From the NCBI RefSeq assembly GCF_027924565.1, contig NZ_AP027041.1:868001-932000 (forward strand): a DNA stretch of 64,000 nucleotides, written 5' to 3'. The notes below the pieces were generated by a model. That model was given only the letters and a program-made list of their open reading frames with translations, had not been told where the DNA came from and did no database searches. The position numbers were made by a program, and so were the translations under genes. The DNA comes from Lysobacter auxotrophicus (lineage in GTDB: Bacteria; Pseudomonadota; Gammaproteobacteria; Xanthomonadales; Xanthomonadaceae). This document shows positions 17,785 to 29,357 of the stretch, in pieces. How positions within the stretch are numbered: position 1 is the first letter of the stretch; every line of letters starts with the position of its first letter.

Positions 17785-17790
17785 TAAGAT
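17785..17790 (+). promoter_or_regulatory. Candidate -10 box of the btuB/cob transcript
   Basis: TAAGAT, placed so that transcription would begin near 17797, just before the cobalamin riboswitch aptamer. The -35 region is weak. Confidence 0.45.
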
Positions 17791-17804
17791 GCCCCCGCCC
17801 AAGG

Positions 17805-18003
17805 TGACCGCCGGCGTGTCCGGTGGTTGAAACGGGAATCCGGTGCGCCCTTCGTGCTCGTCACGCGCGGCAATTCCGGAGCTGCCCCCGCAACGGTAGG
17901 CGAGACAAGGTTCCGCACACAGCCACTGTGCTCACGCATGGGAAGGCGCGGACCGGAAGCGCAGGAATTCCTGCCTTCACTCGCGAGCCCGGAGACCGGC
18001 CAT
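17805..18003 (+). promoter_or_regulatory. Cobalamin riboswitch
   Basis: The conserved B12-element segments are found in order: a 5' P1/P2 part, the B12-box stretch gctgcccccgcaacggtagg (17881-17900), the gccactg segment (17922-17928), ggaaggcg (17942-17949), and the closing ccggagaccggcc (17990-18002). The distal P1 strand ends about 130 nt before the btuB start. Binding of adenosylcobalamin is expected to repress btuB and, by coupling, the cob operon. See also the Shine-Dalgarno-sequestering helix reported separately. Confidence 0.93.
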
Positions 18004-18070
18004 GGTGCGACGTGACATGCGGTGGGCGATGTCATGCGGCGCAGGGCCTTTCGTGCGCCGCCATCACTCC

Positions 18071-18131: not shown

Positions 18132-19988
18132 GTGCATCCGCATCACCGGTTGTTCCGCCGCCGTGCGCTGGCGGTTTCCCTGTTTTCTTGCGTGTTTTCC
18201 GCGGCCCCGGCGTTCGCCGACGACGCCGCCACCGATCTGGACCAGATCGTCGTTACCGCCACGCGCACCGCGCAGACGCAGGACCAGGCGCTCGCCGCGA
18301 TCACCGTGATCGACCGCGCGGAAATCGAGCGCCTCCAGCCCGCCTCGTTGCCGGCGCTCCTCACCGGGCGCGCGGGCATCTCGATCGCCAACAACGGCGG
18401 CGTCGGCAAGTCCACGTCGCTGTTCCTGCGCGGCACGGAATCCGATCACGTGCTGGTGCTGGTCGATGGCGTGAAGATCGGTTCGGCGACGAGCGGTGGT
18501 GCGTCGCTGCAGGACATTCCGGTCGAACAGATCGAGCGCGTCGAAATCGTGCGCGGTCCGTTCTCCAGCCTTTACGGTTCGGAGGCGATCGGCGGTGTGA
18601 TCCAGGTGTTCACGCGACGTCCGGCCGGCGCGTTCTCGCCGAACGCCAGCGCCGCCATCGGGAGCGAGAATACGCAGCGCGTCGCCGCGGGCGTGAGTGG
18701 CAGCGCCGCGGATTCGCGCGGCTGGTACGTCGTCAACGCCGCGCATGAGAACACCGACGGCATCAACGCGTATCGCGGCACGCGCAACTTCGATCCGGAC
18801 AAGGACGGCTATCGAAACGACTCGCTGACCGTGCAGGGCGGCTACCGCTTCAGCGAGCGGTGGGACGCCGATCTGCGCGCGTTCCGCGCCGAAGGTCGCA
18901 ACGAGTACGACGGCAGCGTCAACAACGAAGCCGACACGGTGCAGCAGGTCGTCGGCGGCCGCGTGCGCTACGTGCCAGGCGCGCGCGTGAAACTGACGGC
19001 GGGCCTCGGCACGAGCGCGGACCTCAGCGAGAACTTCCTCGACGGCGTGTATTCCTCGACGTTCGACACGCGCCGCGAATTGGGTTCGTTGCAGGCCGAT
19101 ATCGGCATCGCGACGGGCCTGCTCACGCTCGGTTTCGACTGGCTCGGCGACAAGGTGCAAAGCAATACCGATTACGCGCGCGATCGTCGCATCAACCGCG
19201 GCGTGTTCGGCCAGTGGCAGCAGGCGTTCGGCGCGCAGTCGGTGCAGGCCAGCGTGCGTCGCGACGACGACAGCCAGTTCGGCGGCGAGACCACCGGCAG
19301 CGTGCTGTGGGGTTGGGACGTCACCGACGCGCTGCGCCTCGGCGCGAGCTACGGCACCGCATTCAAGGCGCCGACGTTCAACGAACTCTACTTCCCGGGC
19401 TACGGCAATCCGGCGCTCGGGCCGGAAACCTCGCGCAGCGTCGAGCTGAGCCTGCGCGGCGAACACGGCTGGGGCACGTGGTCGCTCAACGCGTTCGAAA
19501 CGAAGATCGACGACCTGATCGCGTTCGACTCGTCGCTGGGCGACACGGGCGGACCGAACAACATCGATCGCGCCCGGATTCGCGGTGTCGAAGCCGTTGC
19601 CGGCACGACGTGGCTGGACTGGAACCTGCGCGCGAGCCTGACCTGGCTCGACCCGGTGAACGACGGCGACAACGCCAGCCACGGCAACGTGCTGCCGCGT
19701 CGTGCGAAGCAGTCGGGGCGCGTCGATGCCGATCGCCGCTTCGGACGTTTCAGCGTCGGCGCGAGCGTCACCGGCGCGGGCGAGCGCTACGACAACCTCA
19801 CCAACACCACGCGCCTGGCCGGCTACGGCCTTACGGATCTGCGCGCCGGCTTCGCCTTCACCGAAGCGTGGAGCGTGCAGGCCTCGCTCAACAACGCGTT
19901 CGACAAACGCTACGAAACCGCCGCGCTCTACAACCAGCCCGGACGCACGTGGCTGGTGACGGTGCGCTACCAGCCCGCCGCGCGCTGA
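18132..19988 (+). CDS. btuB: TonB-dependent vitamin B12 receptor BtuB
   Basis: Outer-membrane beta-barrel taking up cobalamin with TonB energy. The 618-residue product starts at GTG 18132, 7 nt after AAGGAG. It has a signal peptide ending AAPAFA (about residue 29), a TonB box in LDQIVVTATRT, and a plug domain (TSLFLRGTESDHVLVLVDG, IERVEIVRGPFSSLYGSEAIGGVI). The barrel ends in the family's C-terminal aromatic pattern. Its position directly after a B12 riboswitch and before cob genes sets it apart from siderophore receptors. GTG at 18126 is a less well-spaced alternative start. Confidence 0.93.
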   Translation: MHPHHRLFRRRALAVSLFSCVFSAAPAFADDAATDLDQIVVTATRTAQTQDQALAAITVIDRAEIERLQPASLPALLTGRAGISIANNGGVGKSTSLFLRGTESDHVLVLVDGVKIGSATSGGASLQDIPVEQIERVEIVRGPFSSLYGSEAIGGVIQVFTRRPAGAFSPNASAAIGSENTQRVAAGVSGSAADSRGWYVVNAAHENTDGINAYRGTRNFDPDKDGYRNDSLTVQGGYRFSERWDADLRAFRAEGRNEYDGSVNNEADTVQQVVGGRVRYVPGARVKLTAGLGTSADLSENFLDGVYSSTFDTRRELGSLQADIGIATGLLTLGFDWLGDKVQSNTDYARDRRINRGVFGQWQQAFGAQSVQASVRRDDDSQFGGETTGSVLWGWDVTDALRLGASYGTAFKAPTFNELYFPGYGNPALGPETSRSVELSLRGEHGWGTWSLNAFETKIDDLIAFDSSLGDTGGPNNIDRARIRGVEAVAGTTWLDWNLRASLTWLDPVNDGDNASHGNVLPRRAKQSGRVDADRRFGRFSVGASVTGAGERYDNLTNTTRLAGYGLTDLRAGFAFTEAWSVQASLNNAFDKRYETAALYNQPGRTWLVTVRYQPAAR

Positions 19989-20014
19989 CGGGCATCACTG
20001 CTGCGAGGTCGTCG

Positions 20015-20596
20015 ATGAAATCCCTTCCACGCAACGCCAACCTGGGCCTGTTCGCCGCATTCGCGGCGTTGATGGTCGCCACGCGCTTCCATCATTTCGG
20101 CGACGTGCTGCACCTGCCGGACGCGTCGATGTCGCTGTTCTTCCTCGGCGGCCTGTACCTGCGCAGGCACTGGCAGTTCGCGGCTTTCGTCGTGCTTGCG
20201 GTGGCGATCGACCGGATCGCGATCGAACGCGCCGGCGTCAGCGATTTCTGCGTGACGCCGGCGTACTCGTTCCTGCTGCCCGCGTACGGCGTGCTCTGGT
20301 ACGGCGGACGCCTCTACGCCGATCGTATGGGCACGCACTGGCGCTCGATCATCACGGCCTGCGGCCTGGCGTTCGTTGCCGCCACGGTGTCCTTCGCCAT
20401 TTCGAACGGCGCGTTCTATTGGCTCGGCGGCCGCTACGAAGACCCGAACGTCGCGCAATACCTCGCGCGCGCGTGGCAGTGGGGACCGCTGTTCGTCCGC
20501 ACGACGATCGCCTACGTGTTCGTCGCGCTGGCGGTGCACTGGATCGCGGCGTCGGCCCTTTCGATCCGCGCCGACCGCAGTTCCCCGAATCGATGA
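20015..20596 (+). CDS. btuM: BtuM-like cobalamin transporter (inner membrane, solitary S-component type), copy 1
   Basis: 193-residue protein with about six hydrophobic segments and no signal peptide. The pattern LMVATRFHHFG...ASMSLFFLGGLYLR and the motif DFCVTPAY with Cys79 resemble BtuM. BtuM is a solitary ECF-type S-component that carries cobalamin without BtuCD and has a cobalt-binding cysteine near residue 80. Position supports this: 26 nt after btuB, under the same riboswitch, with no btuCDF nearby. A close paralogue follows at once. The family call is from memory of motif and length, not a search. Confidence 0.65.
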   Translation: MKSLPRNANLGLFAAFAALMVATRFHHFGDVLHLPDASMSLFFLGGLYLRRHWQFAAFVVLAVAIDRIAIERAGVSDFCVTPAYSFLLPAYGVLWYGGRLYADRMGTHWRSIITACGLAFVAATVSFAISNGAFYWLGGRYEDPNVAQYLARAWQWGPLFVRTTIAYVFVALAVHWIAASALSIRADRSSPNR

Positions 20597-20610
20597 ACGG
20601 AGACCACGCC

Positions 20611-21219
20611 ATGTCCGCCATGCCCGCACTTTCCGAACGCGCGCTTCCGATCGCGTCCACGCGCACGCAGATCCTCGTCGCCGGCGCGCTCGCCGCGCTC
20701 ATGATCGCCACGCGCGGTCAGCACTTCGCCAGCGTGAACGCACTGCCGAGCGCGTCGTGGGCGGTGTTCTTCCTTGCGGGTGCACTGTTGCGGCCGATGT
20801 GGGCGCTGCCGGCGTTCTTCGTGCTGTCGTCGCTGCTGGATTTCGCCAGCCTGGCCACCGGCACGATCACCGACTGGTGCCTGTCGCCCGCGTACTGGGC
20901 GGTCGCGCTCGCCTACGCGACGCTGTGGCTGGGCGGCACGTGGTATGCGCGCGGCCATCGGGATGCCTGGAGCGCGGTGCCGCGACTGGCGCTGGTGCTG
21001 GGGGTTTCGGCGAGCGTCGCGTACCTGATCTCGAAGGGCGGCTTCTATTTCTTTTCGGGCCGCTATCCCGACGCGACGCTGGCCGGTTTCCTCGCACGCA
21101 TCCCGCAGTACTACCCGCGCTCGCTCGGCACGCTCGCCGGTTACGTGGGCCTCGCGTTCGCGTTGCGCGCCATCACGCTCGGCTTCGCGCGACGGCACGC
21201 ACGGAGCGCGCACGCATGA
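20611..21219 (+). CDS. BtuM-like membrane protein, copy 2 (tandem paralogue)
   Basis: 202-residue multi-pass protein colinear with the preceding one: LMIATRGQHFA...ASWAVFFLAGALLR, then TDWCLSPAYWAVALAY with Cys90 aligned to Cys79 of copy 1, then a SKGGFYFFSGRYPDATLAGFL segment matching SNGAFYWLGGRYEDPNVAQYL. The ATG at 20611 follows CGGAGA by 7 nt; the ATG at 20593 is less likely. The stop overlaps the cobO ATG (atga). It may carry a different corrinoid, or pair with copy 1. Confidence 0.6.
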   Translation: MSAMPALSERALPIASTRTQILVAGALAALMIATRGQHFASVNALPSASWAVFFLAGALLRPMWALPAFFVLSSLLDFASLATGTITDWCLSPAYWAVALAYATLWLGGTWYARGHRDAWSAVPRLALVLGVSASVAYLISKGGFYFFSGRYPDATLAGFLARIPQYYPRSLGTLAGYVGLAFALRAITLGFARRHARSAHA

Positions 21220-21842
21220 GCGCCGGGTCCGAACGACGCGGGCTTTCCCCCGACGAACATCACCGCGAACGCGCGCAGCGCAAGAAGGAACTGATCGATC
21301 GACGCATCGCACGCGCGACGATCGACCGCGGCGTCGTCGTGGTGAACACGGGCAACGGCAAGGGCAAGAGCTCGTCCGGCTTCGGCATGCTCGCGCGATC
21401 GCTCGGGCATGGCTTCCGCTGCGGCGTGGTGCAGTTTATCAAGGGAAGTTTCACCACGGGCGAGGAAGCGTTCTTCCGTCGTTTCGACGATCTCGTCGCT
21501 TACCGCGTGATGGGCGAGGGCTACACGTGGGAGACGCAGGATCGCCCTCGCGACGTCACCGCGGCCGCTGCGGCGTGGGATGTGGCCGCGCGCATGTTGG
21601 CCGATCCCGCGTACGACTTCGTGCTGCTGGATGAACTCAACATCGCGTTGACGAAGGACTACATCGCGCTGGAGGACGTGCTCGCCGCGCTGGCGGCGCG
21701 GCCGCCTAAGCAGCACGTCGTGATCACCGGTCGCGGCGCGCCCGACGCGCTGGTCGACGCCGCCGACACCGTCACCGAGATGCGCGTGGTGAAGCACGCG
21801 TTCAAGGCCGGCATCAAGGCGCAGCACGGCATCGAGCTGTGA
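21216..21842 (+). CDS. cobO: Cob(I)yrinic acid a,c-diamide adenosyltransferase
   Basis: Transfers the 5'-deoxyadenosyl group from ATP to the reduced cobalt of corrinoids (CobA/CobO/BtuR family). The 208-residue product has the P-loop [14 protein letters not shown] at about 44-57, preceded by a basic N-terminal helix ([10 protein letters not shown]). [26 protein letters not shown] and VVITGRGAP are family signatures. Its start overlaps the upstream gene by 4 nt. Confidence 0.95.
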
Positions 21843-21844
21843 CC

Positions 21845-23137
21845 ATGGACCTTCGCCATTGCCCCGCGCTGCTGGTTTCCGCGCCCGCGTCCGGGCAGGG
21901 CAAGACCAGCGTCACCGCCGCGCTCGCCCGATGGCATGCGCGCCAGGGGCGCCGCGTGCGTGTGTTCAAGACCGGGCCGGATTTCCTCGATCCGACGGTG
22001 CTCGAACGCGCGAGTGGCGCGCCGGCTTACCAGCTCGACCTGTGGATGAACGGCGAAGCCGACGTGCGCGCGCGATTGAACGCCGCCGCGCGCGACGCCG
22101 ATCTCATCCTCGTGGAAGGCGTGATGGGCCTGTTCGATGGCTCGCCTTCGAGTGCGGACCTGGCGCAGGCGTTCGGCCTGCCGGTGCTCGCGGTGATCGA
22201 CGGCTCGGCGATGGCACAGACCTTCGGCGCGCTGGCGACCGGGCTTGCGCGCTATCGCGCCGGCCTCGTCGTGCACGGCGTCGCCGCGAACCGCATCGGA
22301 AGCGCGCACCATGCGCGACTGCTGCGCGAGAGCGTGCCGCCAGAGCTGCACTGGGTCGGTGCGTTGCCGCGCAATGCAGCGCTGGCGTTGCCGGAACGTC
22401 ATCTCGGCCTGGTGTCCGCCGGCGAGTTGCACGATCTCGATGCGCGCGTGGATGCGCTCGCGGATGCATGGCAGCAGCACGCCTCGACCGCGCTTCCGCC
22501 GCGCGTGGCGTTCGTCGCGTCGGATACGCCGTCCGTGCGTGGATTGCTGCAAGGCGTGCGGATCGCGATCGCGCGCGACGCGGCGTTCTGCTTTCTCTAT
22601 CCCGCCAACCTGGATCTCCTCCGCGATGCCGGCGCGCAGTTGCGCTACTTCTCGCCGCTCGCGGGCGATCCGCTTCCCGAGTGCGACGCCGTGTGGCTTC
22701 CGGGCGGGTATCCCGAATTGCATCTGCATGCACTGTCGCAGCGCACCGACCTGCACATCGCATTGCGCGCGCATCGCGACGCCGGCAAGCCGCTGCTCGC
22801 CGAATGCGGCGGCTTGTTGTTCGCGCTGGATTCGCTGGCCGATCGCGACGGCGCGCGTGCGCCGATGGCCGGGCTGCTGCGGGGCTCGGCGGCGATGCAG
22901 TCGCGAATGGCGGCGCTTGGACTGCAGTCGGTCGCGCTTCCGGAAGGCACGCTGCGCGGCCACACGTTCCATTACGCGAAGGCGAGCGTGGACGCGGTGC
23001 CGATCGCGGTCGCCGTGAATCCGAACGACGGTCCGAGCGCCGAGGCGGTGTATCGCGAAGGGCGCATGACGGCGAGCTTCGTACACGTCTATTTCCCGTC
23101 CAACCCGCACGCAGCGACGAGGCTCTTCGCGCCGTGA
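21845..23137 (+). CDS. cobB: Cobyrinate a,c-diamide synthase
   Basis: Amidates carboxylates a and c of the corrin ring (CobB/CbiA). The product is ~430 residues. The N-terminal dethiobiotin-synthetase-like ATPase has the P-loop [12 protein letters not shown] and KTGPDFLDP; the middle has the switch [11 protein letters not shown]. The C-terminal class I glutamine amidotransferase has catalytic Cys321 (LAECGG) and His in [11 protein letters not shown]. The ATG at 21845 lies 2 nt after the cobO stop. A GTG at 21839, overlapping that stop, is an alternative start two codons longer. Confidence 0.94.
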
Positions 23138-24054
23138 ACGTCGCACTCGCCATGCTCGCCGCCGTGGCGCTCGACGCGATGCTGGGCGAGCCGCGGCGCG
23201 CGCACCCGCTGGTCGCGTTCGGCCGGTATGCAGCGTGGATCGAACGGCGATGGCACCGCGACCGTCGCGCGGCCGGCGTGTTCGCGTGGATGCTCGCCGT
23301 CGCGCCGCTGGTGCTTGCCGTCGCAGGGGTGTCGCATCTCGTGGGGCGATGGCCGTGGGCGTCGTCGATCCTCGCGGCGTTGGTGCTGTACCTGGCGATC
23401 GGGCATCGCAGCCTGGCCGAGCACGCCCGCGCGGTGGAAATCGCACTGCGTGCGGACGACCTCGACGCCGCACGCGCGGCGGTGGGTCGCATGGTGAGCC
23501 GCGACACCGGCGCGCTCGACACCTCGCAGGTCGCCGCCGCGGCGACGGAATCGGTGCTCGAAAACGGCAGCGACGCGGTGTTCGGGGCGCTGTTCTGGTT
23601 CGCGTTGCTTGGTGCGCCCGGCGCCGTGCTGTATCGCCTCGCCAACACGCTGGACGCGATGTGGGGCTACCGGACGCCGCGCCTGCTGCGCTTCGGCTGG
23701 GCGGCGGCGCGCATCGACGATGTGCTGAATATCGTCCCCGCGCGCCTGACCGCGCTGACGTACGCACTACTCGGCCATGCACGAACGGCGCTGCACTGCT
23801 GGCGTACGCAGGCGCCGCAATGGGACAGCCCGAATGCGGGGCCGGTGATGGCCGCCGGCGCCGGTGCGCTGCGCGTGCGCCTCGGCGGCGCGGCGCCGTA
23901 TCACGGTGTGTGGGAAGCGCGCCCGCTGCTCGGCGAAGGTGAGGCGCCGGACGCCGATTCGATATCGGCCGCGTTGCGCCTGGTCCGTCGCGGCGTCTGG
24001 TTGTGGCTCGCGGTGGCGTTCATCGCGATAGTGCCTGGAGGTCTGCATGCTTGA
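23134..24054 (+). CDS. cbiB: Adenosylcobinamide-phosphate synthase CbiB
   Basis: Membrane enzyme attaching (R)-1-amino-2-propanol phosphate to adenosylcobyrate. The 306-residue product has several hydrophobic helices. It shows family motifs: [19 protein letters not shown] near the start, the [13 protein letters not shown] region, [19 protein letters not shown], and the C-terminal [19 protein letters not shown]. Translation starts at a GTG overlapping the cobB stop. It runs 8 nt into the next gene, cobD. Confidence 0.94.
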
Positions 24055-25042
24055 ACACGGCGGCCGATTGCTGCGCGCCGCGCGCACCTACGGCATCGCG
24101 CCAGAGCGCTGGCTCGACCTGTCGACCGGGATCAGCCCGTTCGCGTGGCCGGTGCCGCCCATCCCGGCGTCCGCATGGCACCGCCTGCCGGAGGACAATG
24201 ACGGGCTGGAAGCGGCTGCGCGCGATTATTACGGCGCGCCTTCGCTGCTCGCGGTCGCCGGCTCGCAGGCCGCGATCCAGGCCCTTCCGCGTCTGCGCCC
24301 GCATTCGCGCGTCGGCGTGATCGCCCCCGGGTACGCGGAGCACGCGCATGCGTGGCGCGCTGCCGGGCATGCGGTCGAAACGCTTCCCGCCGATATGTTG
24401 CTGGCACAACACGGGCGCTTCGACGTCATCGTGTTGATCCACCCGAACAACCCGGGCGGTGAACGCTTCGATCGCGAGCGACTGCTCGAACTGCATGCAA
24501 CGCTCGCGCAGCGAGGCGGGTGGCTCGTCGTCGACGAAGCCTTCATGGATGCGACGCCCGAGGCGAGCCTGTGCGATGCAGGCGATCGCGACGGGCTCAT
24601 CGTGCTGCGGTCGGTCGGCAAGTTCTTCGGCCTTGCCGGAGCGAGGGCAGGCTTCGTCTGCGCGAGTGCGGCGCGGCTTGCATCGCTGCGCGACATGCTG
24701 GGGCCGTGGACGCTCACCGGTCCCAGCCGCTACGTGGTGCGCTGCGCGCTGCAAGATCGCGAGTGGCATGCCATGCAGCGTGAACGACTGGCCGCGTTCG
24801 GCGCGCGCCTGCGCGAAACGCTGGCCGCCGCCGGATTCGCGCCGGACGCCGGTTGCGCGTTCTTCCAGTGGAAGCGCGATCCGCGCGCGGCCGCGATGCA
24901 CGAAGCGATTGCGCGGCGCGGCATCCTGACGCGCCGGTTCGACGAGCCCGCGAGCATCCGTTTCGGCTTGCCGCCGGACGGCCTCGCGTTCGAGCGACTG
25001 CACGAGGGCGTCCGCGCAGCATTGACGGAGATCGACGCATGA
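24047..25042 (+). CDS. cobD: L-threonine-O-3-phosphate decarboxylase
   Basis: PLP enzyme of the aminotransferase fold-type I family that makes (R)-1-amino-2-propanol phosphate, the linker used by CbiB (called CobD in Salmonella, CobC in Pseudomonas). The 331-residue product has the entry motif [13 protein letters not shown], the HPNNPGG segment, VVDEAFMD, and the PLP lysine at 192 in [15 protein letters not shown]. The ATG overlaps the cbiB end by 8 nt, which keeps enzyme and consumer together. Confidence 0.93.
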
Positions 25043-26511
25043 GCGCGCACGTGCTGATGGTGCAGGGATGTACGTCCGATGCCGGCAAGAGCACGCTCGT
25101 CGCGGCGCTGTGTCGATGGCTGCATCGGCGCGGTGTGCGCGTGGCGCCGTTCAAGCCGCAGAACATGGCGCTCAACTCGGCGGTGACCGAGGACGGCGGC
25201 GAGATCGGCCGCGCGCAGGCGGTGCAGGCCCAGGCGTGCGGCCTCGCGCCGCACACGGAGTTCAATCCGGTGCTGCTCAAGCCCAACAGCGACACCGGTG
25301 CGCAGGTCATCGTGCACGGCCGCGTCGCGGCGAATCTGGATGCGCGCGGCTATCACGATTACAAGCGCATCGCGCGCGAAGCGGTGCTCGCCTCGCACGC
25401 GCGACTGTGCGAGCGTTTCGATGCGGTGATCGTCGAAGGCGCGGGCAGTCCGGCGGAAATCAACCTGCGCGCGAACGACATCGCCAACATGGGCTACGCC
25501 GAAGCGGTGGATTGCCCGGTGATCCTGATCGCCGACATCGACCGCGGCGGCGTGTTCGCGCACCTCGTGGGAACGCTCGCGTTGCTCAGCGAAAGCGAGC
25601 GCGCCCGCGTGCAGGGCATTGTCATCAACCGCTTTCGCGGCGACATCGCGCTGCTGGAGCCCGGGCTCGAATGGCTCACGCGCGAGACCGGAAAGCCCGT
25701 GCTCGGCGTGCTGCCGTACCTGCACGGGCTGCACATCGAGGCCGAAGACGCGGTGCCGATGCCGCGCGAGACGCCCGGCGCGCAGTTGCGCGTCGTCGTG
25801 CCGGTGCTGCCGCGCATCAGCAATCACACCGATTTCGATGCATTGCGCGCGCATCCGCAGGTGGACCTGCGATTCGTCGGCGCAGGACAAACGCCGCCGC
25901 CGTGCGATCTCATCGTGCTGCCGGGCAGCAAGTCCACGCGCGCCGATCTGGCGTGGCTGCGCGCGAACGGATGGGCGGACGCCATCGCGCGCCACCTGCG
26001 CTACGGCGGCAAGGTGCTCGGCATCTGCGGCGGGCTGCAGATGCTCGGGCGTGCCGTGCACGATCCCCACGGCATCGAGGGCGATGCGGGGTCCAGCGAG
26101 GGCCTGGGCTGGCTGGAGCTTGAAACCACGCTCGCGTCGCACAAGCACTTGCGCAACGTCACCGGCCGTCTTGCGTTCGACAACGCGGCGCTGCGCGGAT
26201 ACGAGATCCACTGCGGAACGAGCGAAGGGCCGGCGTTGTCGCGTCCCGCGTGCACGCTCGACGAGGGGCGCGCAGACGGCGCGATGTCGGAGGATGGAAG
26301 CATCATCGGCACCTACGTGCACGGCGTGTTCGACCATCCCGATGCGCTGGCCGCGCTGTTGCGGTGGGCCGGCCTGCATGAAGCGCAGCGACTCGACATC
26401 CATGCGTTGCGCGAGGCCTCGCTGGAGCGCCTGGCGGACGCGATCGAAGCGCACCTCGACACCGATGCCGTGCTCCGGCTCCTCGGGCAGGAGGCTGCAT
26501 GCGAACCTTGA
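25039..26511 (+). CDS. cobQ: Cobyric acid synthase
   Basis: Amidates carboxylates b, d, e and g of adenosylcobyrinic acid a,c-diamide (CobQ/CbiP). The 490-residue product has the N-terminal ATPase [16 protein letters not shown], the [10 protein letters not shown] and [12 protein letters not shown] motifs, and a C-terminal amidotransferase with Cys330 ([11 protein letters not shown]) and His in [11 protein letters not shown]. The atga overlap with cobD, and a 13-nt overlap with cobU, show tight coupling. Confidence 0.96.
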
Positions 26512-27020
26512 TCCTTGGCGGTGCGCGTTCGGGAAAGAGCGCGCTGGCCGAGCGCATCGCGATCGAGTCCGGTCGCGATGTCGTCTACATCGCCACCGCG
26601 CGCGCGGGCGATGCCGAGATGCACGAACGCATCGCGCATCATCGTGAACGGCGCCCCTCGCACTGGGAGTCCGTCGAAGAACACCTGGCGCTCGCTACCG
26701 CCCTGCGCGACCGCGCGCGACATGATCGCTGCGTGCTCGTGGATTGCCTGACGTTGTGGCTCGCCAACCTGCTGGCGGAGCAGGATGCGCCGCGCTTCGA
26801 ACGCGAACGCGGCGCGCTGCTCGACGTGCTGCCGACCTTGCCGGGTCAGATCCTCATCGTAAGCAACGAGACCGGGTTGGGCGTGGTGCCGATGGGCGCG
26901 CTCACGCGGCGCTTCGTCGACGAGGCGGGGCGCCTGCACCAGGAGCTCGCACGCCGCTGCGATCGCGTGCTGTTCGTCGCGGCGGGGCTGCCGCTCGCAC
27001 TGAAGGGGACGTACGGATGA
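26499..27020 (+). CDS. cobU: Adenosylcobinamide kinase / adenosylcobinamide-phosphate guanylyltransferase
   Basis: Bifunctional nucleotide-loop assembly enzyme that phosphorylates adenosylcobinamide and then transfers GMP to it. The 173-residue product has the P-loop GGARSGKS at 7-14, the [10 protein letters not shown] loop carrying the His that becomes guanylylated, and [13 protein letters not shown] and [10 protein letters not shown] near the end. This activity lets the cell use imported cobinamide. Confidence 0.95.
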
Positions 27021-28063
27021 ACGAGGCATGGTGGTGCAGGCCGTGCGACGCGCCGGATATCGACGTCGAGCGGATCGCGCTCGCGCGGCAGGGCATGCTG
27101 ACGAAACCGCCCGGTTCGCTGGGCGCATTGGAGGATCTCGCCGTGTGGTGCGCGGCGCGGCAGGGCACGGATCGTCCGGGAATCGAACGCGTGTGGATCA
27201 GCGTGTTCGCCGCCGACCATGGCGTGGCGGCGGAAGGCGTGTCGGCGTTTCCGCAGGCGGTGACCGGCGAGATGGTGCGCAACTTCGCGACCGGCGGCGC
27301 CGCGATCGCGGTACTCGCGCGGCAGCTTGGCGCGCGGCTCGACGTGGTGAACCTGGGCACGGTGAACGATCCCGGCGAGGTACCGGGCGTGCACCGCGCG
27401 ACGATCGCGCCGGCCACGGCGAACTTCTGCGATGCCGCGGCGATGACGCCGGTACAACTGCGCACCGCGATGCAAGCCGGTGCCGATCGCGCGGCGCTCG
27501 CGCTCGATCACGATGCGGACCTGTTCATCGGCGGCGAGATGGGCATCGGCAATACGACGTCCGCAACGGCGCTGGCGTGCGCGTTGCTGGACGAGTCGCC
27601 CGACGCGCTGGTCGGTGCGGGAACCGGCCTGGATTCGGCCGGCATGGCGCGCAAGCGGGACGTCGTGCAGCGCGCGCTCGATCGTCACGCCGACGCGCGC
27701 GATCCGCTCGAACGCCTGCGGCGCCTCGGCGGTTTCGAGATCGCCGCGCTGACCGGCGCATACATCGCCGCCGCGCAATCGCGGATGCCCGTGCTGGTGG
27801 ATGGTTTCATCACCACCGTCGCCGCGCTCGCCGCGGTGCGATTGAACGCCAGCGCGCGCGAATGGCTGTGCTTCGCGCACCGCTCGAACGAGCGCGGGCA
27901 TGCGCGCGTGCTCGATGCATTGCAGGCGCAGCCATTGCTGGACCTGCGCATGCGCCTGGGCGAAGCAAGCGGCGCCGCCGTCGCTGTTCCGCTGCTGCGG
28001 CTGGCATGCGCGCTGCATCGGGAGATGGCGACGTTCGAACAGGCCGGCGTTACGCGCGCATGA
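27017..28063 (+). CDS. cobT: Nicotinate-nucleotide-dimethylbenzimidazole phosphoribosyltransferase
   Basis: Activates the lower ligand by making alpha-ribazole phosphate from nicotinate mononucleotide and dimethylbenzimidazole. The 348-residue product has the [15 protein letters not shown] motif at about 35-50, [15 protein letters not shown], the [11 protein letters not shown] loop, and the catalytic-region segment [17 protein letters not shown]. The ATG overlaps the cobU stop by 4 nt. Confidence 0.95.
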
Positions 28064-28611
28064 CGACGGCGACGATCGATCTGCTGCGACATGGCGACAC
28101 CGGTCAGCGCAGCTACCGCGGGCAACTCGACGATGCACTCAGCGAGCTGGGCTGGTCGCAGCTTCGTGGCGCGGTGGTCGGGCAGGAATGGTCGATGATC
28201 GTGTCCTCGACGTTGCAGCGTTGCGCGCGATTCGCGCATGAGTTGGCGAGTACGCGAGGCGTACCGCTGCATCTGGACGCGCGCCTGGCCGAGTACCACT
28301 TCGGCCATTGGCAAGGCGTGCCGATCGAAACGCTGGCGGAAGAACAGGGCGAGGCGCTCGGCCGGTTCTGGGCGGACCCGGTGGCGCATCCACCGCCGGG
28401 CGGCGAGACGTTCGCGCAGTTCCGCGCGCGCCTTTGCGCGGCGATGGACGATGTCGCGGCCAGTGCGGGACGCGGCCGCGTCCTGGTGGTCACGCACGGC
28501 GGCGCGATCCGGCTGCTGCGCTGCATCGCCGAGGCGCGCGGCTTCGGCGATATGGCCGGCATCGACGTGCCGCACGCGTCGCTGCATCGCATCCGCTGGC
28601 CGGCCGCGTGA
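28060..28611 (+). CDS. cobC: Alpha-ribazole phosphatase (histidine phosphatase family)
   Basis: 183-residue phosphoglycerate-mutase-type phosphatase. The phosphohistidine is His11 in LLRHGD, the acid motif is around [11 protein letters not shown], and the second histidine is in [11 protein letters not shown]. Histidine phosphatases have many substrates. The place between cobT and cobS, overlapping both, makes removal of the 5'-phosphate from alpha-ribazole phosphate or from the final product the likely role. Confidence 0.87.
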
Positions 28612-29357
28612 TGCGCGGCCTGCTCGTGGCGGTCGGTTTCCTCACGCGCATTCCGGTGCCGTCGTGCGTGTATGCCGACGCGCGGGCGCGATCGCAATCG
28701 CTTGCGTGGTATCCGTTGGTCGGCGCGTTGATCGGTGCGATGTTGTGCGCGTTGCTGTGGCTCGCACCGGGCGACAAGCCGTTGCTCGTTGCGGCGATGC
28801 CGCTGGTCGCGTGGGTGTCGATTACCGGCGCGCTGCACCTGGACGGTCTCGCCGACAGCGCCGATGCGTGGGTCGGTGGCATGGGCGGCAGCTGGGACGA
28901 ACGCCGCACGCGCACGCTGGACATCATGAAGGATCCGCGCTGCGGGCCGGCCGGCGTCACCGCGCTCGTGCTGGTGTTGCTGGCGAAGTTCGCCGCGCTG
29001 GCGAGCCTCGGTCCCGATGCGTGGCGATGGCTGTGGCTGCCGCCGTTGCTGGCGAGGATGGCCGCGACCACGGCGTTCGTCGGCACGCCTTACGTGCGCG
29101 CCGGCGGCCTTGGCACCGAGATTGCGGGCGCATCGCGCATCGCCTGCACGATCGCGTTGTCGCTCGGCGTCGCCGCGTGTGCGTGGGCCGGTGCGCGTGG
29201 CGCGGTGGCGGTGGCGATCGCGGCGATCGTTTTCCTGCTATGGCGGCGCGCATGCATGCGCCGGCTCGGGGGTATCACCGGCGACACCGCCGGCGCTTTG
29301 GTGGAACTGGTCGAAACGGCGGTGCTGGTGGGCGTGGCGCTGTTTCCGCCCGCCTGA
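28611..29357 (+). CDS. cobS: Adenosylcobinamide-GDP ribazoletransferase
   Basis: Membrane enzyme that joins adenosylcobinamide-GDP to alpha-ribazole, completing cobalamin. The 248-residue product has about six hydrophobic helices. It shows the family motif TGALHLDGLADSADAW at about 70 and the DIMKDPRCGPAGV segment. Its ATG shares one base with the cobC stop. It is the last gene of the operon, and its stop is only 2 nt from the convergent yceH stop. Confidence 0.95.
   Translation: MRGLLVAVGFLTRIPVPSCVYADARARSQSLAWYPLVGALIGAMLCALLWLAPGDKPLLVAAMPLVAWVSITGALHLDGLADSADAWVGGMGGSWDERRTRTLDIMKDPRCGPAGVTALVLVLLAKFAALASLGPDAWRWLWLPPLLARMAATTAFVGTPYVRAGGLGTEIAGASRIACTIALSLGVAACAWAGARGAVAVAIAAIVFLLWRRACMRRLGGITGDTAGALVELVETAVLVGVALFPPA

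Follow-up and report, generated by a model that had tools for sequence, protein, structure and literature searches.

Two putative BtuM importers of distinct subfamilies encoded side by side in a riboswitch-headed B12 salvage operon of Lysobacter auxotrophicus

Results

A corrinoid operon with two adjacent btuM genes

The stretch of DNA that we analyzed (the window) comprises 64,000 nucleotides of Lysobacter auxotrophicus, positions 868,001-932,000 of NZ_AP027041.1 (GCF_027924565.1). On its forward strand lies a compact run that begins with a cobalamin riboswitch and btuB, continues with two btuM genes (btuM-A and btuM-B, whose products are called A and B below) and cobO, and ends with the late pathway genes from cobB to cobS (Table 1). 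A preliminary description of this DNA had placed two BtuM-like genes between btuB and cobO under a single B12 riboswitch; its coordinates for both genes are exact, the family matches of the neighbors confirm the placement, and the upstream RF00174 element is the sole riboswitch in the window at the Rfam gathering threshold. A gap of 14 bases lies between the two btuM genes; with 20593 as the start of B, they would overlap instead. A sigma-70 scan of positions 19800-21400 revealed no promoter, neither between A and B nor elsewhere in this interval, which contains one terminator-like site against 1.2 expected.

Table 1 Features of the corrinoid operon, in window coordinates
Feature	Position	Strand	Evidence and remarks
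Cobalamin riboswitch RF00174, operon leader	17785..18018	+	cmscan 109 bits, E 2.2e-26, full model 1-189
btuB, TonB-dependent outer-membrane B12 receptor	18132..19988	+	TIGR01779 760.9 bits vs cut-off 599.7; start 18126 or 18132
btuM-A, 193 aa, six-helix BtuM	20015..20596	+	phmmer to PDB 8c7p E 4.1e-31; AlphaFold mean pLDDT 94.4; Foldseek 8c7p E 4.8e-11, TM 0.83/0.89
Cys79 codon of A, counterpart of Thiobacillus BtuM Cys80	20249..20251	+	sequence, alignment
btuM-B, 202 aa, six-helix BtuM	20611..21219	+	phmmer to PDB 8c7p E 8.7e-45; AlphaFold mean pLDDT 93.3; Foldseek 8c7p E 1.7e-13, TM 0.81/0.91
btuM-B alternative ATG	20593	+	would overlap the stop of A
Cys90 codon of B, counterpart of Thiobacillus BtuM Cys80	20878..20880	+	sequence, alignment
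cobO/btuR, corrinoid adenosyltransferase	21216..21842	+	TIGR00708, NF004637 above cut-off; start overlaps B stop by 4 bases
cobB/cbiA, cobyrinate a,c-diamide synthase	21845..23137	+	NF002204 above cut-off
cbiB, adenosylcobinamide-phosphate synthase	23134..24054	+	TIGR00380 above cut-off
cobD, threonine-phosphate decarboxylase	24047..25042	+	TIGR01140 above cut-off
cobQ, cobyric acid synthase	25039..26511	+	NF001989, TIGR00313 above cut-off
cobU, adenosylcobinamide kinase/guanylyltransferase	26499..27020	+	NF004469 above cut-off
cobT, DMB phosphoribosyltransferase	27017..28063	+	TIGR03160 above cut-off
cobC-like alpha-ribazole phosphatase	28060..28611	+	TIGR03162 126 bits, under cut-off 162.9
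cobS, adenosylcobinamide-GDP ribazoletransferase	28611..29357	+	NF001278, TIGR00317 above cut-off

Both proteins belong to the BtuM family

The ungapped alignment of A and B covers 163 residues at 40% identity, and its E-value of 2e-34 implies that their likeness is not due to chance. The shared motifs that had been pointed out earlier are present (ATRFHHF in A and ATRGQHF in B; ASMSLFFLGG in A and ASWAVFFLAG in B), as are the aligned cysteines, C79-VT-PAY in A and C90-LS-PAY in B. In a phmmer search against the PDB sequences, the sole significant relative of either protein was 8c7p/8ovv (Table 1), and one further chain per protein appeared at non-significant E-values of 0.6 and 0.83. The identity to 8c7p in the Foldseek alignments is 43% for B and 36% for A. 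We modeled the monomers with AlphaFold, as the preliminary description had proposed, from input alignments of 74 rows (A, B, and 72 stretches chosen from the 92 BtuM stretches of the named loci, those omitted being mostly near-copies). Each model has six long helices, and the top Foldseek matches of both are 8c7p and 8ovv at TM-scores of 0.79-0.91.

The PDB titles of 8c7p and 8ovv read ‘Tagless BtuM’ with cyanocobalamin and hydroxycobalamin and name no organism. Since the residue numbering of 8c7p fits all five positions described in PMC6072759, 8c7p is presumably the Thiobacillus protein. According to the BtuM passages of that paper, Cys80 of Thiobacillus denitrificans BtuM is the cobalt ligand and is required for growth rescue, and H28, D67, Y85, and R153 line the pocket (Rempel et al. 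2018, PMC6072759). In our alignment, A and B each keep the cysteine and the counterparts of all four pocket residues. The Cys, Asp, and Tyr are invariant over the 138 BtuM rows of the tree described below, and the cysteine is found in 176 of 177 aligned BtuM rows, the remaining row having a gap. Among 35 A-type and 35 B-type rows, the cysteine and every pocket residue are retained except for the His in one A row. Pfam and NCBIfam scans returned no family for A or B; these libraries may hold no BtuM model, so the scans are silent on membership. The sequence, the predicted fold, and the pocket residues thus bear out the earlier assignment of both copies to BtuM, which we regard as sound and well supported.

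Helix 1 of A and B also contains an Ala-x-x-x-Ala that ends in the ATR motif and occurs in 56 of the 177 rows. An AxxxA motif in helix 1 of S-components contacts EcfT; the genome here has no EcfT match.

The genome shows no other evident route for corrinoid entry

We searched the L. auxotrophicus genome (4.16 Mb, single contig, 100% complete) for the families of other importers and of corrin-ring synthesis. No match was found genome-wide for FecCD, the family of BtuC (the positive control detected it in 13 of 14 known genomes), CbiQ, the family of EcfT (PF02361; control 10 of 14), SbmA_BacA (control 2 of 14), or CbiC/CobH (control 7 of 14), and the source genome holds no third BtuM. The earlier remark that BtuCDF is not seen here therefore stands for BtuC and now extends beyond the window to the whole genome; the search covered FecCD, and the BtuD and BtuF parts of the remark stay as they were.

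Two proteins in the genome carry a B12-binding domain; they match the methionine synthase MetH and the fused isobutyryl-CoA mutase IcmF, the latter from a partial stretch and below its cut-off. These matches, together with the genes from cobB to cobS and the lack of a CbiC/CobH match, indicate that the organism uses B12, keeps the pathway from CobB onward, and apparently cannot build the corrin ring, as judged from the one ring enzyme tested. A late pathway from cobB to cobS alongside a missing CbiC/CobH is the profile of a cobinamide salvager, and 46% of precursor salvagers retain cbiA/cobB, so that keeping this gene is not unusual (PMC6461909). Because FecCD, CbiQ, SbmA/BacA, and CbiC/CobH are all unmatched, A and B form the only evident entry route for B12 and are the strongest candidates for supplying the salvage pathway with corrinoids, with room left by such family searches for other importers.

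The pair recurs within the Lysobacteraceae

BtuM was matched in 200 of 297 family genomes and at least twice in 60 of them. An adjacent pair is present in at least 50 of the 297, from 11 genera among the matches listed, and 34 of these tandem genomes have a third BtuM match, again among the matches listed. One further pair-bearing genome (G092) has an A copy that spans two reading frames. The 69 named loci of the genome collection comprise 21 with an adjacent pair (L034-L054; Lysobacter, three Pseudoxanthomonas, one Xanthomonas, one Lysobacteraceae, and one gammaproteobacterium), two with two copies apart (L076, L093), and 46 with a single copy; the locus sets overlap, L054 being the same sequence as L139 and L076 the same as L156. 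Within the genus, seven of 12 genomes have the tandem, and the same seven each have two strong CobB/CobQ-type matches. The other five include four with no CobB/CobQ-type match and one with a marginal match (27.1 bits against a cut-off of 27). From this co-occurrence, the BtuM pair and the salvage genes appear to come and go together in the genus.

At three loci the A position looks irregular: the match contains one in-frame TGA in G116:C12 and G217:C2 and is split over two frames in L128. Possible readings are that A is decaying in the presence of B or that the match runs on beyond the end of the gene.

A and B represent two old subfamilies

To place A and B among their relatives, we built a BtuM tree from the 138 different stretches among 176 found, omitting identical ones and repeat fetches of the source genome. 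Its rows are 35 A, 35 B, 18 of a third type (C, see below), four Luteibacter, and 46 others; it is a quick tree, built without bootstrap, and has long branches. A groups with the BtuM of the Luteibacter operons (39 rows, SH-aLRT 99). B groups with one Hydrocarboniphaga protein (36 rows, SH-aLRT 99), and together they join proteins of Thiogranum, Methylotenera, and Marinobacterium (49 rows, SH-aLRT 92). On this tree, A and B represent two old, distinct subfamilies and are not each other’s closest relatives. The preliminary description had spoken of a duplicated BtuM; with 40% identity and two separate subfamilies, a recent tandem duplication is not supported. Forcing A, B, the Luteibacter proteins, and L069 into one clade costs 17.9 log-likelihood units and is not rejected (AU p 0.214), for which reason we do not claim two separate origins. 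Either an old duplication whose products then evolved apart or two origins could account for the pair.

Within the genus, purifying selection acts on A and B alike. The dN/dS values for A are 0.15-0.40 over 21 pairs. For B, all but one of 21 pairs give 0.19-0.29; the remaining pair is near-identical, and its value of 1.5 carries no weight. Fixed differences between A and B lie beside conserved motifs, namely LPDAS in A versus LPSAS in B, F-H-H versus G-Q-H before the pocket His, and N versus K at B142, and these class-specific residues near the pocket suggest specialization. Some of the B-type residues are also found in single-copy B-types and hence mark the subfamily rather than the pairing.

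Either type can stand alone in the operon

We retrieved 20 regions of family genomes; 15 were chosen for having no adjacent pair among the matches listed. A is alone in the operon in 13 of these 20 regions, three with cobB and ten without. Six regions have both A and B; four of these, L128 included, lack cobB, and L137 additionally lacks cbiB and cobD matches. In the one other region (L134), the sole operon BtuM is of the B type but distant from B. For five of the 13 A-alone cases (G005, G057, G137, G197, and G224), the genome contains no BtuM match besides A, and the other eight genomes carry further BtuM matches elsewhere. Four Luteibacter loci, L074 among them, likewise have A alone with a full operon, and in Thiogranum and Methylotenera a lone B-type accompanies these late genes. 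A alone is also found with them at L121-L123, and B-types alone at L055 and L056. Judging from these natural arrangements, either type can serve as the sole BtuM of such an operon. The earlier suggestion that the copies form a heterodimer is accordingly unlikely to hold in an obligate form.

The cobB gene is missing from the otherwise similar operons L124-L133 and L135-L138, as if salvage had moved to later intermediates. We considered whether B is tied to cobB, as expected if B served the salvage of less amidated corrinoids, and scored both on an operon tree of five operon proteins from 45 operons (L139 omitted as a copy of L054, and L134 scored as B-present). The state of B changes at least six times on this tree and that of cobB at least three times. 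The raw lean (10 of 13 A-only operons lack cobB) leaves five independent pairs on the tree, too few for the association, and the sign test is not significant; the idea was dropped.

A third BtuM type and other doublings

The third type, BtuM-C (HYCVSPAY-type), adjoins a gene for an adenosyltransferase-like protein, which we take to be PduO-like, in all 18 family regions examined for it (L103-L120). It has the Cys, Asp, and Tyr in 18 of 18 rows and the His in 14 of 18, and Asn replaces R153 in all 18. Cobalamin riboswitches were absent from the four BtuM-C loci scanned; eight of nine further operon loci were positive, and L157 gave none at threshold.

In 369 genomes at the class level, BtuM is present in 40 and doubled in seven, with adjacent copies in the source genome only. 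We inspected five of the six others (G445 was left out). In three of them (G305, G567, and G628; L156-L158), a single cob gene run has a BtuM at or near each of its two ends. The two BtuMs of G331 belong to separate btuB-btuM-cobO operons (L159, L160), one without a cobB match, and G556 has one operon BtuM and one beside a pduO match. By FastTree, the G305 and G567 copies form two matching sets apart from A and B, and the G628 copies are nearest to Thiogranum-type proteins and L163. From these placements, a second BtuM seems to have been acquired within one B12 operon on more than one occasion. In the other two-BtuM operons, no residue pattern shared by all first or all second copies was seen at the 14 positions compared.

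Discussion

We consider it likely that A and B are two true solitary BtuM importers, acting as independent units, that come from old subfamilies and are kept under one riboswitch, probably widening the range or raising the capacity of import. In the proposed scheme, BtuB would deliver corrinoids to the periplasm, and A and B, being S-component-like, would carry them over the inner membrane without an ATPase. C79 or C90 would ligate the cobalt of the base-off corrinoid and could strip cyanide. Adenosylation by CobO would then trap the corrinoid inside, and CobB, CbiB, CobD, CobQ, CobU, CobT, and CobS would complete it. Transport, cysteine ligation, and decyanation by A and B are inferred by analogy, the mechanism of each copy being taken from one characterized homolog. 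BtuM decyanation is reportedly the subject of a 2024 study (Structure 32:1165). Each copy would act on its own, and our guess is that a second one probably either extends import to further corrinoid forms, concentrations, or upper ligands or adds capacity; a range of substrates or conditions and simple dosage seem about equally likely as the reason.

A stricter division of labor, with one copy for complete cobalamins and the other for incomplete corrinoids (cobinamide, cobyric or cobyrinic acid) that the operon finishes, is a serious contender that stops short of being probable. It would suit a genome that keeps the pathway from CobB onward with no CbiC/CobH match, the fixed A/B differences beside conserved motifs, and the retention of the cysteine and pocket residues in both types. 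However, A alone (Luteibacter L074; L121-L123) and B-types alone (L055, L056) serve the same late genes, and B does not strictly accompany cobB, as four fetched A+B operons lack it and seven A-alone operons have it. Nor do the other two-copy operons combine one residue type with the other, and the characterized Thiobacillus BtuM binds both Cbl and Cbi, as stated in the BtuM passages of PMC6072759. That the two are instead interchangeable importers, functionally alike, which raise capacity by dosage or redundancy, is a slightly weaker contender. A and B share the operon, the regulation, and the pocket residues, and B comes and goes while the operon is otherwise largely kept; yet the long separate histories, the fixed class residues, and the purifying selection on both exceed what dosage would need, for which a near-identical tandem copy would suffice.

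It is improbable that one copy is no longer a corrinoid importer and has turned, say, into a sensor of corrinoids or a carrier of another tetrapyrrole. The subfamilies are old, and the S-component fold has also been discussed together with receptors (in the part of PMC11109136 on this fold), but both proteins have all five pocket and ligand residues, both lie between btuB and cobO, and operons of this kind elsewhere have one or the other type as their sole BtuM. Least probable of all is an obligate A-B heterodimer or hetero-oligomer, one subunit perhaps standing in for the missing EcfT platform, which would be favored by the tandem arrangement in at least 50 genomes and the lack of a CbiQ/EcfT match, but which sits badly with the family and Luteibacter operons that have A alone, the B-types alone in L134 and other lineages, the five genomes in which A is the only BtuM found, and the Thiobacillus BtuM, which was functional in E. 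coli as the sole BtuM expressed (BtuM passages of PMC6072759).

The two independent importers that we favor most resemble the T. denitrificans BtuM as described in those passages, in the fold with six helices, the cysteine and pocket residues, the btuB/btuR neighbors, and the lack of an ECF-T match; unlike that single BtuM, two subfamilies stand side by side here. The likeness of A and B to the solitary BioY and to the ECF S-components FolT, RibU, ThiT, and BioY is weak in Foldseek (TM roughly 0.4-0.6, E above 0.1). Solitary transport is reported for BioY in passages of PMC6072759 and PMC11109136. A and B have no significant sequence relation to these proteins and no EcfT match in their genome. 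BtuCDF, CbrT-ECF, and Rv1819c/BacA perform the same physiological step but are ATP-driven (PMC6072759, PMC10378866; see also PMC10960864), and their families FecCD, CbiQ, and SbmA_BacA are unmatched in the source genome. With the cobinamide salvagers of PMC6461909, as far as its salvage passages go, the operon shares a late pathway without corrin-ring genes, and two BtuMs are the presumed inner-membrane step here. The passages of PMC6977713 on Bacteroides thetaiotaomicron likewise describe more than one corrinoid transport set per genome, as multiple btuB and btuFCD paralogs; these sets differ in being ATP-driven and outer-membrane transporters, and no BtuM is named there for that organism. 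Two BtuMs in one genome are not mentioned in the BtuM passages of PMC6072759, PMC11109136, PMC10378866, PMC8123684, PMC12075633, PMC4465626, PMC12713380, PMC6977713, PMC7329351, and PMC7305189, a statement that excludes the supplementary homolog list of PMC6072759, which may hold multi-copy genomes.

For the family as a whole, we tentatively suggest that Lysobacteraceae might split corrinoid import among two or three solitary BtuM subfamilies, with the riboswitch-run A/B pair for salvage and differing corrinoids or upper ligands and BtuM-C with its PduO-like partner for complete cobalamin. If true, this would be the first functional specialization among S-components working without an ECF module, as far as the literature searched shows. 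At least two further lineages of gammaproteobacteria seem to have doubled BtuM in a cob operon on their own. The locus bears on the transport mechanism of solitary S-components, which carry a large cofactor with no ATPase to drive them. By comparing the natural pairs with the matched single-copy operons of relatives, one could learn the contribution of each BtuM type, and the finding suggests that such bacteria depend on BtuM alone for B12 and its precursors.
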